NCBI GenBank assembly: GCA_022781985.1 | Contig: JALESH010000051.1 | Location: forward strand, 1 to 47,011 | DNA: 47,011 nt | Reading direction: 5' to 3' | DNA from: Lachnospiraceae bacterium | GTDB lineage: Bacteria > Bacillota > Clostridia > Lachnospirales > Lachnospiraceae | Shown here: piece after piece, positions 478 to 33,642 of the stretch | Layout: every line of letters begins with the position of its first letter | Numbering within the stretch: the stretch's first letter is position 1 | Translations under genes and position numbers: made by a program | Notes under the pieces: model-generated | Told to the model about the DNA's origin: nothing | The model's input: only the letters and a program-made list of their open reading frames with translations | Databases searched by the model: none

Positions 478-945
478 ATGATCAAAAGGACAGTAAACAG
501 GTTATGCGAATTACATCATACCCGAAATCCTTATGTCCTGGCCTCCGCTATGGGCATATTGGTTATTCATGAAGATCTGGGGAAGATCGGCGGCTACTAT
601 AATAAGCTGTTAAGAATGAAACAGATCCACATTAACCATCATCTATCTGAATCAGGAAGGCTTTTTACGTGTGCCCACGAGCTGGGGCATGCCATTCTGC
701 ACCCCAATGAGAATACTCCTTTTTTAAAGCAGAATACATTTTTATCAGTGCATAAATTAGAGAATGAAGCAAATCTGTTTGCCGCCGAGCTGCTCATACC
801 GGATGAAATCATTCTGGAGAACCACACGCTGACACTGAACCAGCTCTCAAGGCTTCTTGGCTATAGGGAGAAATTAATAGAGCTTAAACTGAAGTCACTT
901 TCCTCTTCACTTCTGCCATCCGCCGATTTTCAAAGCAGGAAATAG
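478..945 (+). CDS. ImmA/IrrE-family metallo-endopeptidase (155 aa)
   Basis: Predicted zinc metalloprotease of the ImmA/IrrE (DUF955, COG2856) family. The zinc motif HELGH is at residues 67-71, preceded by FTCA. The family's second motif, ENEANLFAAELLIP, is at about 95-108 and would supply the third ligand (E95/E97). Its length fits the minimal stand-alone members. No signal peptide or membrane segment is visible, so it should act in the cytoplasm. It follows the XRE regulator on the same strand after 31 bases, probably cotranscribed. A modest ribosome site (AGGGGT) lies about 10 bases before the ATG. By analogy with ICEBs1 and DdrO/IrrE systems it may cleave the neighbouring repressor. The stop codon is followed within a few bases by an intrinsic terminator. 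Confidence 0.85.
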   Translation: MIKRTVNRLCELHHTRNPYVLASAMGILVIHEDLGKIGGYYNKLLRMKQIHINHHLSESGRLFTCAHELGHAILHPNENTPFLKQNTFLSVHKLENEANLFAAELLIPDEIILENHTLTLNQLSRLLGYREKLIELKLKSLSSSLLPSADFQSRK

Positions 946-949
946 TTCA

Positions 950-980
950 GGCTGGGATCCTCCTGTATCCCAGCCTTTCT
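950..980 (+). terminator. Intrinsic terminator after the XRE-ImmA pair
   Basis: A 9-bp perfect stem (GGCTGGGAT at 950-958, ATCCCAGCC at 967-975) with an 8-base loop is followed by TTTCT. It ends the plus-strand pair and separates it from the convergent spoVG gene. The minus side lacks a clear T run. Confidence 0.8.
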
Positions 981-1005
981 CCTTCACAAAATATTTTTGT
1001 CAGCA

Positions 1006-1287
1006 TTATCCCGGCATTTCCTCCTCCGGCTCCAGCAGAGCCTTCTCATAGCTGTCCAATATAACAGCCTGGATCCTCTCCCTTGTTTGGGAGCTGATGG
1101 GATGGGCAATATCCCTGTATTCTCCTTCCCCCACCTTCTTGCTGGGCATTGCAATAAAGAGACCCTTGTCCCCTTCGATCACCTTGATGTCATGAACTAC
1201 AAACTCCCCATCCAGCGTAATCGATACAATGGCTTTCATCTTTCCGTCCTTGGAAATCCTCCGTACTCTGACGTCCGTTATTTTCAT
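1006..1287 (-). CDS. spoVG: SpoVG family septation/sporulation regulator (93 aa)
   Basis: SpoVG is a small nucleic-acid-binding regulator that affects septation, sporulation and surface gene expression in Firmicutes. The protein begins [11 protein letters not shown] and carries the family core with [22 protein letters not shown] and YRDIAHPI; the length matches the family. The open frame extends 17 codons further upstream, but the ATG at 1287 fits the family start and has a G-rich ribosome site (GGGGGGACGCAGAGG) just before it. It lies 92 bases downstream of glgD on the same strand, so readthrough from glgCD is possible. I see no convincing promoter in that short gap. Confidence 0.93.
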
Positions 1288-1379
1288 CCTCTGCGTCCCC
1301 CCATGAGCTGCAGCCCCCATAATCTGCCGCCCATACAACCTTCTCTGCAGCCGCCCTTTGCTCTGCGACCGCTCTCTCC

Positions 1380-2498
1380 CTACATCACATATCTGTCGCT
1401 TTCTTCAATGATGATCTTTATCTCACCCTCTCCCTTGTAATAGGAGTTGGCTCTGATGGTATCCCTGCTCTCCACAATACAGTTTTCAATATGGGTGTTG
1501 TCCCCGATATATACGTCATTCAATATAATGGAATTCTTTATATAACAGTTGTTTCCAATATATGTCTTTCTGAATAAAATGGAATTCTCCACCGTACCGT
1601 TTATAATCGAACCGCTGGAAACCAGACTGTTCCTTACCCGAGCCCCCACATTATATTTAGCCGGAGGAAGGTCTCCTGCCCTGGAATAGATATCGGGATA
1701 CTGCTTGAAAAAGTAATCCCTGATCTCAGGCTTCAGAAAATCCATATTGGTATCATAATAATCCTGTACCGTAGCGATATTTCTCCAATACTCCTTTATC
1801 TTGTATCCGTAAATACGCTTCATATTCTTATACCGGATCAGAATATCCTTGACAAAGTCATAACGCTCCTCTTCCATGCCCTTTTCAATCATCTCGATCA
1901 GCTGGCGCCTTCTGACTACATAGATGCCGCAGGATACGGTATTGGATTTGGCTATGATGGGCTTTTCCTCAAATTCCTCAATACGGCTTTCTTCATTCAT
2001 CTTTATGATGCCGTATCTGCCAACATCCATACCCGCAGGCATATCCTTGCATACCACCGTGATGTCAGCATTCTTTTCAATGTGATATTCCAGCACCTTA
2101 TTATAATCCATCTTATAGACACAGTCTCCTGAGGCAATGACTACATAAGGCTCATGACTGTTTTTAAGAAAGGCCATGTTCTGGGCGATGGCATCGGCAG
2201 TTCCCCTGTACCAGAAATTTCCCTCCGATGTAATAGTGGGTGTGAACACAAACAGACCGCCCTGTTTCCGGCCAAAATCCCACCATTTGGAGGAACTGAG
2301 GTGTTCATTGAGGCTGCTGGCATTGTACTGTGTAAATACTGCAACCTTCTGGATATGGGAATTGGACATATTACTCAGAGCAAAATCAATGCCGCGGAAG
2401 CTTCCGGCCACAGGCATGGCACACACGGCGCGGTTTTTTGAAAGCTCCTTCATTCTGTGATTGTTACCGCCTGCTAAAATAATCCCTATTGCTCTCAC
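1380..2498 (-). CDS. glgD: GlgD, regulatory-type subunit of ADP-glucose pyrophosphorylase (372 aa)
   Basis: Paralogue of GlgC that, in Firmicutes with both genes, forms a heteromer and raises activity of the glycogen-synthesis enzyme ADP-glucose pyrophosphorylase. A nucleotidyltransferase domain starts with [16 protein letters not shown] and is followed by a left-handed beta-helix of hexapeptide repeats near residues 290-360. In the active-site strand GlgC has [10 protein letters not shown] while this protein has [10 protein letters not shown]. The Lys/Arg of the N-terminal substrate loop also differs (GGNNHRM instead of GGQGSRL), consistent with a weakly active or inactive subunit. Translation starts at a GTG that overlaps the glgC stop by one base (TAGTG), indicating translational coupling and a fixed ratio of the subunits. 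Confidence 0.93.
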
Positions 2499-3769
2499 TA
2501 TTCATCACCTGCCTTAATCAATGTTTTTCCGCTTGCCAGACAGCGGTTGGGATAATCCTCTGCTGTGGTGACTCCAAAGATCACCGAATTCTTTCCCACT
2601 GTTACCCCTTCCGGCACAATGCTTTTCTCTCCCACAGTAACCATTCCGTTATTGTAGATATGGGGATCTGTCTCGTTGGGAACCTCCTGCCCCACACCCA
2701 GCCTTACATTGTCATTGATCCTTACATTTTCTGCCACGATGGCCTTGTACAGCTCACAGTTTCTGCCGATGTATGTTTCGTTCATAATAATGGAATCCCT
2801 GACCACCGCACCTTTTTCGATGGTCACGCCGCACCCGAGCACAGAATTGTATACCTCTCCGTAGATGTCTGACCCGGCGCCGATGATACTCTTCTCAATA
2901 ACGCTCCCATCGGCTACGTACTGAGGCGGCAGCATGGTGCTTCGCGTATAGATCTTCCAATATTCCTCATACAGATTGAATTCCGGCACAATATTGATCA
3001 GCTCCATATTGGCCTCCCAGTAGGAGCTCAGCGTACCCACATCCTTCCAGTAGCCGTTAAATTCATAGGCATACAGGGGTGCCCCATGGCTGTGGCAGTA
3101 TGGGATAATATGCTTCCCAAAATCCAGGGCCGGCTGATCCGCATTTACCACCAGGGCATCCTTTAGGGTTTTCCAATTAAATATATAGATACCCATGGAG
3201 GCCAGATTGCTTCTGGGCTTCTCCGGCTTTTCTTCAAAATCCGTAATCTTCTTATTTTCATCCGTAATCATGATGCCGAAACGTCTGGCCTCTTCCATCG
3301 GAACAGGCATAACCGCAATCGTTACCTCCGCATTGTTTTCCTTATGGAAATTCAGCATCACCTCATAATCCATCTTATAAATATGGTCTCCGGAAAGTAT
3401 CAGTACATAGTCCGGATTAAAGCTGTCTATATAATCTATATTCTGATAAATAGCATTTGCAGTACCAGTATACCACTCACTGTTGGTACTCTTTTCATAG
3501 GGAGGAAGCACCGTTACGCCGCCGATATTCCTGTCCAGATCCCAGGGAATGCCTATTCCGATATGTGTGTTCAGCCGAAGAGGCTGATATTGGGTCAATA
3601 CGCCCACCGTATCCACACCTGAATTGATGCAGTTACTAAGCGGAAAGTCGATAATTCTGTATTTTCCCCCAAAAGACACAGCAGGTTTGGCCACCTTTGA
3701 GGTAAGAACCCCCAGCCGGCTGCCCTGCCCTCCGGCCAACAACATGGCAATCATTCCTTTTTTAATCAT
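2498..3769 (-). CDS. glgC: Glucose-1-phosphate adenylyltransferase, catalytic subunit GlgC (423 aa)
   Basis: Makes ADP-glucose from glucose-1-phosphate and ATP, the committed step of bacterial glycogen synthesis, in the cytoplasm. The substrate loop [10 protein letters not shown], the catalytic-strand motif [10 protein letters not shown] at about 136-145 and FEEKP are all intact, and a C-terminal beta-helix with hexapeptide repeats is present. Length is typical. The ribosome site GAGGTGAT is 6 bases before the ATG. It is the first gene of glgC-glgD(-spoVG). A promoter with an extended -10 lies about 70 bases upstream in the AT-rich divergent region shared with murC. Confidence 0.96.
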
Positions 3770-29759: not shown

Positions 29760-29954
29760 CTATAATACTTCCCGGATCTTTGCCATGAGTTCATCGGCAT
29801 CCAGTCCATGCACCATGGCCGCTTCTTCCAGAGTCTCTCCCTGTGCGGAAGGACATCCCAGGCAGTGCATGCCGATCTCCAGCAGTACCGGTGCAATGGC
29901 GGGGCTGATCTGCAATGCCTGACCGATTGTCATATCCTTGGTTATCTCTGCCAT
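29760..29954 (-). CDS. DUF1858 domain redox-type small protein (64 aa)
   Basis: Whole protein is a DUF1858 (hybrid-cluster-associated disulfide reductase-like) domain: [12 protein letters not shown] at the N-terminus, and a CxxC pair C31-C34 in [19 protein letters not shown]. Such proteins are thought to act in redox or metal chemistry; the exact reaction is unknown. The ATG at 29954 follows AAAGGAGG by 8 bases; the longer open frame upstream is not coding. It is divergent from pflB with separate promoters in a 270-bp gap, which suggests but does not prove a link with anaerobic metabolism. Confidence 0.88.
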
Positions 29955-30135: not shown

Positions 30136-30165
30136 TTGACGCTGCAAATATATTTAACATATAAT
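30136..30165 (+). promoter_or_regulatory. Promoter of the split pfl operon
   Basis: TTGACG (30136-30141), 18 bases, TATAAT (30160-30165). Start near 30172, leaving a leader of about 55 bases that ends in AGGAGG before the ATG. Confidence 0.65.
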
Positions 30166-30227: not shown

Positions 30228-32267
30228 ATGAGACCAGAATGGAAAGATTTTGTAGGCGGCAAATGGGAGAATGAAATCAATGTGCGTGATTTCATTCAGA
30301 AAAATTATCATCCCTATGACGGGGACGAGTCCTTTTTAGCAGAGCCTACTCAGAACACCAAGGATTTATGGGCACAGGTGCTTGAATTACAAAAACAGGA
30401 GCGTGAAGCAGGCGGTGTCCTTGACATGGATACAAAGGTGGTTTCCACTATTACTTCCCATGCTCCCGGCTACCTTGACAAGAGCAAGGAGACCATCGTA
30501 GGGTTCCAGACAGACAAACCCTTTAAGCGTTCCCTGCAGCCCTACGGCGGCATCCGTATGGCAGAAAAGGCTTGTGCTGACAACGGCTACGAAGTGGATC
30601 CTGAGATCAGTGAATTCTTTTCCACACACAGAAAAACACACAATGCAGGCTGCTTTGATGCATACAATCATGAAATGAGGGACTGCCGTTCTTCCCACAT
30701 CATTACAGGTCTTCCGGATGCCTACGGACGCGGACGTATCATCGGTGACTACAGACGTGTTGCCCTGTATGGTATTGATATGCTGATCGAAGACAAGAAT
30801 AAGCAGAAGGATTCTACCGGCCGTGTCATGACAGACCATGTAATCCGTCTCCGTGAAGAGCTTTCCGAGCAGATTGTTGCCCTGAAACTGATGAAGGAAA
30901 TGGCTGCATCCTATGGCTGCGATATTTCCAAGCCTGCTACTAACGTACAGGAGGCTATCCAGGCGATGTACTTCGGTTATCTGTGTGCAGTAAAGGAGCA
31001 GAATGGAGCTGCTATGTCCCTGGGACGTACTTCTACTTTCATTGACTGCTATGCAGAGAGAGACCTGGCTAACGGAACCTTTACAGAGGAGCAGATTCAG
31101 GAGTTCATTGACCACTTTATCATGAAACTGAGGATGATTAAATTTGCCCGTACACCTGAGTACAACCAGATCTTCGCAGGCGATCCGGTATGGGTAACAG
31201 AGTCTCTGGCCGGTGTTGGTGTGGACGGACGTCACATGGTTTCCAAGACCTCTTTCCGTTATCTGCACACATTGACCAACTTAGGCCCCTCTCCCGAGCC
31301 CAACCTGACAGTTCTCTGGTCCACAAGGCTTCCTGAAAACTACAAGAGATACTGTGCGAAGATGTCCATCCAGACCTCTTCCATCCAGTACGAGAACGAT
31401 GACCTCATGAGAGTGGCACACGGCGATGACTATGGTATTGCCTGCTGTGTATCCTCCATGGTAATCGGTAAAGAGATGCAGTTCTTCGGCGCACGTGCCA
31501 ACCTGGCTAAATGTCTGCTTTATGCTTTGAACGGCGGTGTGGATGAAGTAACCAAGAAGCAGGTAGGCCCCAAATACCGTCCTGTTGTGGGTGATGTCCT
31601 TGATTTCGACGATGTAATGGATAAATTCAAGGATATGATGGAGTGGCAGGCAGATGTTTATGTAAATACTCTGAATGTTATCCATTATATGCATGACAAA
31701 TACTGCTATGAGAGAGCACAGATGGCTCTTCATGACAGAGACGTTAAGAGATATTTTGCAACCGGAATTGCAGGGCTTTCCATCGTAGCTGACTCTCTTT
31801 CCGCTATCAAATATGCCAAGGTAGAAGTGATCCGGGACGAAGACGGAGTCATCGTAGACTTCAAAACCACCGGAGAGTTCCCCAAATACGGTAATGATGA
31901 TGACCGTGTAGACCAGATCGCGCACGATCTCGTATCTACCTTCATGACAGCCCTCAGAAGACATCATACCTACAGAGACGGCATTCCTACCATGTCCGTA
32001 CTTACCATAACCTCAAACGTAACCTATGGTAAGGCTACCGGCAACACACCTGACGGACGTAAGAAGGGACAGCCTTTTGCACCCGGTGCCAATCCGATGC
32101 ACGGACGTGATACCCACGGTGCAGTAGCTTCCTTATCTTCTGTAGCAAAGCTTCCTTTTAAGGATGCCCAGGATGGTATTTCCAATACCTTCTCTATTAT
32201 TCCCGGTGCACTTGGTAAGGATGACCAGATCTTTGCCGGTGATATTGAGATTGACTTATCCAAATAA
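30228..32267 (+). CDS. pflB: Pyruvate formate-lyase core subunit lacking the glycyl-radical domain (679 aa)
   Basis: Catalytic barrel of formate C-acetyltransferase, which converts pyruvate and CoA to acetyl-CoA and formate. The catalytic pair is C406-C407 in GIACCVSSM, and the rest of the PFL domain is intact from [13 protein letters not shown] to [16 protein letters not shown]. The protein stops at 679 residues, about 13 after ALGKDD, where normal PFL (about 740-760 residues) continues into the glycyl-radical domain. That domain is a separate gene at 32534. This is not a broken gene: the next two genes each have their own strong ribosome site and all three are intact. Ribosome site AGGAGG. 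The core should be inactive without the radical-domain protein. Confidence 0.95.
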
Positions 32268-32296
32268 TTGTATTGCGCTCAAAGGAGGGGCTTCCA

Positions 32297-32500
32297 ATGG
32301 ATGAGAAGACTATGATTGACGACTTGGTCAAAATGCTGGATGCAGGCATGACACAGGGAGTCGGGCATGTCAACGTAGATGTGGACGAATCCCAGACAGA
32401 AGGCAGAAATGTCCAGACCATGGGATGCACTGACTGCTCCAGAACCCCTCTGGCATGCAGTGTGCCCACCCTGGAACAGGGATTGGATGATTACACCTAA
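32297..32500 (+). CDS. Cys-containing paralogue of the glycyl-radical domain (67 aa, no radical glycine)
   Basis: Lies between the PFL core (29-base gap) and the radical-domain gene (33-base gap). Its N-terminal half IDDLVKMLDAGMTQGVGHVNV aligns with [21 protein letters not shown] of the next gene, about 11 identities in 23 positions and no gaps. After VDVD it diverges completely. The RVSGYAV radical loop is absent and C44, C47 and C54 (GCTDC, then PLAC) appear instead. The start ATG at 32297 follows AAAGGAGGGG. I infer a duplicated radical domain reshaped into a redox-sensitive partner of the PFL core: a placeholder, an inhibitor, a metal or Fe-S site, or a help for activation. No function is known to me. 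Confidence 0.85.
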   Translation: MDEKTMIDDLVKMLDAGMTQGVGHVNVDVDESQTEGRNVQTMGCTDCSRTPLACSVPTLEQGLDDYT

Positions 32501-32776: not shown

Positions 32777-32803
32777 TTTATAGGATTAGAGACAGGGATA
32801 TTG

Positions 32804-32832
32804 GAGACCTTGAGTAGTCAAGGTCTCTTTTT
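32804..32832 (+). terminator. Strong intrinsic terminator between the radical-domain gene and pflA
   Basis: Perfect 10-bp stem GAGACCTTGA (32804-32813) and TCAAGGTCTC (32818-32827), a 4-base loop, then TTTTT. It should reduce pflA relative to the three PFL parts. Confidence 0.95.
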
Positions 32833-32877: not shown

Positions 32878-33642
32878 ATGCAGGGCAGAATACATTCACT
32901 GGAAAGCTTTGGCACAGTGGACGGTCCCGGTACAAGATTTGTGGTATTTGTACAGGGCTGTCCTCTGAGATGTGTCTATTGCCACAACCCTGACACCTGG
33001 TCTGTGGAGGGCGGTACCCTAATGGATCCGGAAGAAATATTTGAACAATATGAAAGAAATAAGGCATTTTATAAAACAGGAGGCATCACCGTAACAGGGG
33101 GAGAACCTCTGATGCAGCTGGATTTCCTTATTGATCTCTTTACCATAGCCAAAAGGAAAGAGGTGCACACCTGTATTGATACATCCGGTATCACCTTCAA
33201 TCCTCAACAGCCTGTCTGGCTCAAAAAGCTGGATCACTTAATGGAACTGACAGATCTGGTTATGCTTGACATCAAGCATATTGATCCCGAGAAGCACCTG
33301 GAACTCACCGGAAAGTCTAATGAAAGGGTTCTGGCCTTTGCAGAATACCTGAATGAAAAGAAAGTAGATATGTGGATCCGCCATGTTGTTGTTCCAGGTC
33401 TTACCGACGATGATAAATATCTTTATGAACTTGGTTATTTTATCGGCCAGTTCAGCAATCTCAAGGCTTTAGACCTGCTCCCCTATCACACTATGGGAGC
33501 TGCCAAGTATCAAAAGCTTGGGATAGAATACAGGCTGGCAGATCTCCCTGCGATGGATAAAGAGAAAATACCCGAAAAGAAGCAGATTGTTATTGACGCC
33601 ATAAAAAAGCGCAGACAGGATGACATGGAAACCGACAAATGA
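32878..33642 (+). CDS. pflA: Pyruvate formate-lyase activating enzyme (254 aa)
   Basis: Radical SAM enzyme that uses a [4Fe-4S] cluster and SAM to place the radical on the glycine of PFL. Cluster cysteines are C28, C32 and C35 (CPLRCVYC). The family start RIHSLESFGTVDGPGTR and TGGEPLMQ (about 75-82) are present. Length is typical of PflA and there are no extra ferredoxin domains. Its substrate here should be the separate 80-aa protein rather than a full-length PFL. It lies 101 bases after that gene, beyond a terminator, so it depends on readthrough or an unseen weak promoter. Ribosome site AAAGGAAAG. Confidence 0.96.
   Translation: MQGRIHSLESFGTVDGPGTRFVVFVQGCPLRCVYCHNPDTWSVEGGTLMDPEEIFEQYERNKAFYKTGGITVTGGEPLMQLDFLIDLFTIAKRKEVHTCIDTSGITFNPQQPVWLKKLDHLMELTDLVMLDIKHIDPEKHLELTGKSNERVLAFAEYLNEKKVDMWIRHVVVPGLTDDDKYLYELGYFIGQFSNLKALDLLPYHTMGAAKYQKLGIEYRLADLPAMDKEKIPEKKQIVIDAIKKRRQDDMETDK

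Follow-up and report, generated by a model that had tools for sequence, protein, structure and literature searches.

Pyruvate formate-lyase (PFL) is a central enzyme of fermentation and the textbook case of a radical enzyme that is killed by oxygen. The window analyzed here, a stretch of 47,011 nucleotides from a Lachnospiraceae bacterium (contig JALESH010000051.1), encodes a PFL that is divided over separate genes (Table 1). These specify a core that lacks the glycyl-radical loop, a 67-residue protein designated X, the standalone glycyl-radical protein GrcA3, and a PFL activating enzyme. Residues 4–669 of the core align with residues 10–681 of E. coli PFL, and the split junction lies at approximately E. 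coli residue 681/682. Cys406 and Cys407 are taken as the catalytic pair of the core based on homology with Cys418 and Cys419 of the E. coli enzyme, while Gly55 of GrcA3 corresponds to Gly734 of E. coli PFL when counted on the alignment. The first-pass annotation of this DNA had placed X between the core and radical-domain genes, behind a strong ribosome site, and this arrangement is confirmed, with AAAGGAGGGG as the Shine-Dalgarno sequence. The promoter-like site that precedes the core gene is a weak call, as the region contains 11 such sites versus 8.2 in shuffles. Terminator-like hairpins number 7 in the region versus 3.7 in shuffles, and the one located downstream of GrcA3 suggests that a single unit comprises the core, X, and GrcA3.

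Table 1. Features of the split PFL locus, with positions in the window.
Feature	Position	Strand	Basis or remark
Small redox-disulfide protein (DUF1858/TIGR03980), divergent	29760..29954	-	Possible partner, not required
Promoter-like site 5' of core gene	30136..30165	+	TTGACG-18-TATAAT, 11/12; weak
Split PFL core, 679 aa, without glycyl-radical loop	30228..32267	+	TIGR01255, 1095 bits, profile 2-665 of 744
Putative active-site Cys406-Cys407	31443..31448	+	Taken as counterpart of E. coli C418-C419; invariant in 26 cores
Cys-free core tail	32220..32264	+	Cysteines sit at this end in cis-type split PFLs
Shine-Dalgarno of X, AAAGGAGGGG	32281..32290	+	Read from sequence; strong
X, 67 aa, proposed trans dithiol tail	32297..32500	+	Open reading frame between core and GrcA3
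X residues 7-34, radical-domain-like anchor (helix + HxNVxV segment)	32315..32398	+	12/28 identity to GrcA3
X residues 44-64, CTDCSRTPLACSVPTLEQGLD	32426..32488	+	Cys pair C47/C54 and PTLxxGLD; accessory C44
GrcA3, standalone glycyl-radical protein, 80 aa	32534..32776	+	NF038360, 162.4 bits (cut-off 158)
Terminator-like hairpin 3' of GrcA3	32803..32828	+	11 pairs, loop 4, T tail
PFL activating enzyme (radical SAM)	32878..33642	+	TIGR02493, 296.4 bits (cut-off 231.75)

The divergent gene for a small redox-disulfide protein was considered as a fixed partner of X. This neighbor is found at 50 of the 54 X loci that have enough flanking sequence; other neighbors are also kept, however, including MecA (36/54) and DnaB (58/77), and synteny therefore accounts for part of the co-occurrence. 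In a hand-picked set of ten loci per type, the redox-disulfide gene is present at 5 with X, at 2 of the cis type defined below, and at 0 with an intact PFL, so that it is not required and its candidacy as a fixed partner was rejected.

Like GrcA3, X is a small, separate protein encoded beside the core, and the resemblance of its N-terminal half to the start of the radical-domain protein, already recognized in the first-pass annotation, holds up. Residues 7–34 of X are identical to residues 8–35 of GrcA3 at 12 of 28 positions (BLASTP E 2e-6 in a single comparison). In contrast to GrcA3, X lacks the RVSGYAV glycine loop and carries a cysteine pair, with GCTDC and PLAC present where the loop would be, also as annotated. 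The GrcA3 profile NF038360 aligns with residues 4–32 of X only and scores 17.6 bits (E 0.003) versus its cut-off of 158, while a Pfam search of X at E values up to 1 returned no match, PF01228 included. A profile of 67 X proteins matched all 16 of 16 intact PFL ends, solely at positions 2–34, and whole-genome profile searches repeat this pattern, as intact PFL ends are matched by the N-terminal part of X only.

X is a real, conserved subunit that has no family name. Relatives were matched in 19 of 41 own and near genomes, and at least 192 are present in genome_contigs; the best 80 of these, which include proteins from Kineothrix alysoides and Acetatifactor muris, all keep the motif GCxDC(x6)CxxPT. 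Two trivial explanations were rejected, namely that X is a chance open reading frame or a decayed radical domain, for which it is too conserved. A scan of viral_contigs gave 30 stretches with the pattern and 0 relatives of X.

The conservation of the individual cysteines is uneven. Each of the 67 distinct X proteins has at least two cysteines, and in 65 of them a Cys is followed later by AC and then by xxPT or xxPN, while the remaining 2 end directly behind a CxxC. The last two cysteines are 4–9 residues apart, and in A3 conservation reaches 90% or more at C47, A53, C54, and P57. In 26 of the 67 proteins, the first Cys does not occur as GCx[DT]C. Since 65 proteins keep the final pair and 26 lack the first Cys, C47 and C54 are constrained and C44 is accessory. 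Consequently, the constraint that had been anticipated for all three cysteines stands for C47 and C54 but not for C44.

The predicted structure of X is a weak model (mean pLDDT 52.8) in which a helix spans residues 3–19 and the remainder is disordered, with pLDDT values below 50 over most of residues 28–67. Such a prediction would be in line with an anchor followed by a free tail. The model of the core failed, with a mean pLDDT of 39.8. Searches of the PDB with X or its profile gave no credible match, and the GrcA3 query returned YfiD (6owr) together with complete glycyl radical enzymes, with neither 38la nor 38lb among the hits. The latter two entries, whose lengths are 687 and 739 residues, are formate acetyltransferase chains without a radical-domain match, which indicates that cores of this kind are under study; as far as the alignment shows, the 38lb chain continues past the core as GECDMCEMKEL, which contains a CxxC. 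No title or abstract on split PFL or X was found in the open-licence literature, where the sole split-gene lead, as far as the accessible text goes, concerns a transketolase (PMC11659671).

The distribution of X was examined across loci with a standalone GrcA3 gene, which were drawn from a class sample (n = 291), the family of the window (n = 150), the G190 family (n = 70), and the G119 family (n = 6). A phylum sample (n = 398) searched with GrcA3 at E values up to 1e-42 contributed no further standalone gene. These sources gave 113 loci, 100 of which have a PFL core upstream and are counted here as split loci; the others are 4 intact PFLs and 9 standalone GrcA3 genes for which the retrieved sequence contains no core. 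X accompanies a Cys-free core tail at 52 of the 100 split loci, whereas at 39 loci X is absent and the core tail itself contains 2–4 cysteines (the cis class, defined by at least two cysteines in the C-terminal tail of the core). Neither form is present locally at 9 loci, and both forms are present at 0. The mutual exclusion of X and cis tails has a Fisher p of 2e-19 over the 100 loci when kinship is ignored. Furthermore, 0 of the 100 core tails contain exactly one Cys versus approximately 22 expected at 1.3% Cys (the Cys content of the cores is 1.5%).

A cysteine element is thereby present locally at 91 of the 100 split loci, and at 93 when X elsewhere in the genome is added. The two additional cases are G891 and G017, and in G891 X is detected only weakly by profile. 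Neither form was found for the remaining 7 loci (G193, G230, G293, G741, G742, G743, and G751); G293, G741, G742, G743, and G751 are five genomes of one genus, and the completeness of G741 and G193 is 69% and 82%, respectively. The search for X elsewhere in cis-type genomes outside the family of the window covered the class sample, with the narrower profile A1.

Within the family of the window, 60 of 150 genomes contain a standalone GrcA3 (E up to 1e-30, open reading frame of at most 140 residues). All 60 have exactly one form, either X (39 genomes) or a cis tail (21 genomes), in a tally that was compiled by hand from the result tables with X counted genome-wide. X was found in only 1 of the 90 genomes without a standalone GrcA3, and that genome is 67% complete. 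In the class sample, all 9 genomes with a true X are among the 18 that have a standalone GrcA3 among the matches listed, and profile A1 gave 0 true X in the 273 genomes without a standalone GrcA3 among the matches listed. The proposed tie between X and split PFL is thus borne out, as X is nearly confined to split genomes. The further expectation that every split locus would contain X fails at the 39 cis loci. The cysteine element is swapped between X and the core tail, and it is well supported that X stands in for cysteines on the core tail.

Comparison of the tails provides additional information on how the two forms are related. Several cis tails repeat the end of X (CDNGACSSPTLFEGLD, CASGACISPTLLQGLD, and CGDMACKVPTLHKGID, with CSRTPLACSVPTLEQGLD in X itself), and others, such as EPDCACCEPN and DKGCCED, have the cysteines only. 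When the 39 cis tails were compared with an X-only profile, 17 scored an E value below 0.01, at profile positions 41–66. The other 22 score worse, and cysteines are the sole feature that they have in common with X; among the 61 Cys-free tails, 0 fell under an E value of 5.8. These results support a common descent of the motif for the 17 matched cis tails, while the 22 unmatched tails may have an origin unrelated to the end of X. Cysteines can be adjacent in cis tails, and across X and the cis tails together the number of cysteines stays at two or more while their spacing varies.

The history of the swap was followed on a tree of 117 cores from which the tails had been removed. The tree includes 97 of the 100 split loci, with L194 and L218 labelled as X based on X elsewhere in those genomes; the intact loci L113, L114, L116, L117, and L140–L151 entered the tree only, apart from L140–L151, which also served in the X-only profile check. 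The X and cis states interleave; on the careful tree, each requires 14 changes, at least 5 of which are forced by well-supported branches, and the quick tree gives 14 (X) and 13 (cis) changes. Intact PFLs account for 3 changes on the core tree. The supported branches provide 5 independent contrasts, in which the two states changed in opposite directions in a mean of 3.9 cases and in the same direction in 0 (sign test p 0.125); five contrasts are too few to settle the matter. A 774-residue PFL at L214 (G857, positions 700–3021) joins a core, a Cys-bearing link (VTCGCEEVTC), and a radical domain in one chain and looks like a re-fused split enzyme. On the quick tree, three other intact PFLs (L221, L245, and L246) likewise branch among split cores.

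PFL and ribonucleotide reductase (RNR) have a barrel fold in common. In PFL, no active-site disulfide is known to form at each turnover, as one does in RNR, and the substrate of the dithiol discussed below is consequently assumed. Similar to the tails of class I and class II RNR, the cis tails and X present a cysteine pair at the C-terminal end of a radical enzyme. The cis tails CDNGAC, CASGAC, and CNSGAC share the CxxGAC form with the CESGAC of E. coli NrdA, which ends ...DDGCESGACKI. According to the accessible text of PMC9531940, the C-termini of class I and class II RNRs are unstructured and their cysteines re-reduce the active site. This precedent, combined with the CxxGAC likeness, suggests that the dithiol of split PFLs may reduce or cap Cys406 and Cys407. 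In contrast to the RNR tail, X in the window belongs to a PFL system, its tail is a separate protein that would be anchored, and its reduction step is putative. Our tentative interpretation, which we consider to have slightly less than an even chance of being correct, is that X is the trans-acting dithiol tail of the split PFL, anchored by its radical-domain-like segment and acting on Cys406–Cys407 in the manner of an RNR tail.

The docking place of X on the core, the redox action, and the order of events are inferred, and the proposed mechanism would proceed as follows. With the radical domain on a protein of its own, the catalytic pair Cys406–Cys407 could stand open while GrcA3 is away. In a cis-type core, the tail begins approximately where the radical domain would start; in the trans type, the anchor of X, a copy of the helix and strand segment, would substitute for the covalent link to the core, so that the cis tail and X would both place a dithiol at the mouth of the barrel. 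Next, the dithiol would reach in and reduce or cap oxidized Cys406/Cys407 via thiol-disulfide exchange, after which it could be re-reduced by cellular thiols. Finally, GrcA3 would return and be activated, restoring turnover. Several observations count against the dithiol-tail reading: in addition to the 7 split loci with neither form, the 22 cis tails that the X-only profile did not match, and the weak sign test, PTLxxGLD is conserved beyond the needs of a plain redox tail, and in G021 X is present while GrcA3 was not found. A broader proposal, that this is a glycyl radical enzyme with an RNR-like dithiol arm that has been repeatedly swapped between a cis tail and a pseudo-radical-domain subunit that would occupy the docking site of the radical domain, the arm and the radical domain alternating in one active site, is more speculative and somewhat less probable than the trans-acting tail itself. 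Glycyl radical formation that is independent of C419 is described in the accessible portion of PMC12338860.

One of the roles first suggested for X is that of a placeholder for the radical domain. X would fill in the missing radical-domain strand and plug the barrel to shield or stabilize the core during the absence of GrcA3, with the cysteines stabilizing the plug or capping the active site through a mixed disulfide. The anchor half of X does copy the PFL segment in which the tenth barrel strand lies (the role of the strand is taken from the accessible text of PMC8683613). However, the cis-type cores have a Cys tail and no extra strand segment, which argues that strand filling is not the shared function. 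As 39 of the 100 loci keep the cysteines on the core tail, the shared element is the dithiol and the idea of a placeholder domain as the common element has to be given up; for X itself, a placeholder role is unlikely.

A role for X in recruiting or recognizing GrcA3 or the activase is slightly less probable again. The precedent is from E. coli, where, in the accessible text of PMC8683613, YfiD/GrcA repairs oxygen-cleaved PFL and needs PFL residues 696–733, the recognition element, to bind the cleaved enzyme. Since the junction of the split enzyme lies near E. coli residue 681/682, this element is missing from the core, and X resembles it in deriving from the stretch between the core and the radical glycine. 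The two differ in that residues 696–733 are part of the same chain, and a cysteine pair is not invoked in the accessible part of that account (PMC8683613). Moreover, several cis tails lack PTLxxGLD (e.g., DKGCCEDVIK), and what the 39 cis tails have in common is at least two cysteines, which is also how the class was defined.

The dithiol might instead donate hydrogen to the glycyl radical as GrcA3 departs, quenching it and thereby preventing its cleavage by O2. A thiol pair close to the radical site would suit this purpose, but one Cys would suffice, yet tails with just one Cys are not seen in any of the 100 loci, and the proposal appears improbable. Least probable, and rejected on account of the variable Cys spacing, is the suggestion from the first-pass annotation of a carrier for a metal or cluster, considered here as a metal or Fe-S cluster that the cysteines would bind for activation: small Fe-S subunits are found in other glycyl radical enzymes, but only two cysteines are general here, with the last two 4–9 residues apart in X and able to be adjacent in cis tails, and at least two cysteines with variable spacing favor a dithiol over a metal site.

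The dithiol-tail reading assigns a function to a small protein without a family name that is common in Lachnospiraceae, and it predicts that the cysteines of X are important when the core tail is Cys-free. If this reading is correct, split PFLs possess a route for protection or repair of the catalytic cysteines that is missing from unsplit PFLs, and PFL and RNR have reached the same redox-tail solution. What is new here is that many of the split loci that lack X have the cysteines on the C-terminus of the core itself. Together the results suggest a split PFL with a redox arm, of which no earlier description was found in the open-licence literature.

Two further families of small proteins (open reading frames of 68–94 residues) share only the first ~35–55 residues of X. 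One family has YHHGRCDVGSPWA/F and the other KCCN/K.YG and YTDL; members are L266 (from the genome of the window, G000:C33 near 31826), L267, L268, and L269, and L258–L265. A Pfam search of two of these X-like proteins gave no name, and all 11 genomes in the sample of the window's family that contain these families also carry X.

The 9 standalone GrcA3 genes with no core in the retrieved sequence (L133/L271, L197, L210, L217, L226, L229, L231, L234, and L241) are possible spare parts. L133/L271 is from the genome of the window (G000:C64:23865-24095, - strand), L226 lies at a contig edge, and L231 and L241 are near genes that by eye resemble Crp/Fnr-type regulators. Lastly, the gene order is core–GrcA3–X instead of core–X–GrcA3 at L123, L153, L154, L156, and L158, which represent five genomes of one genus.
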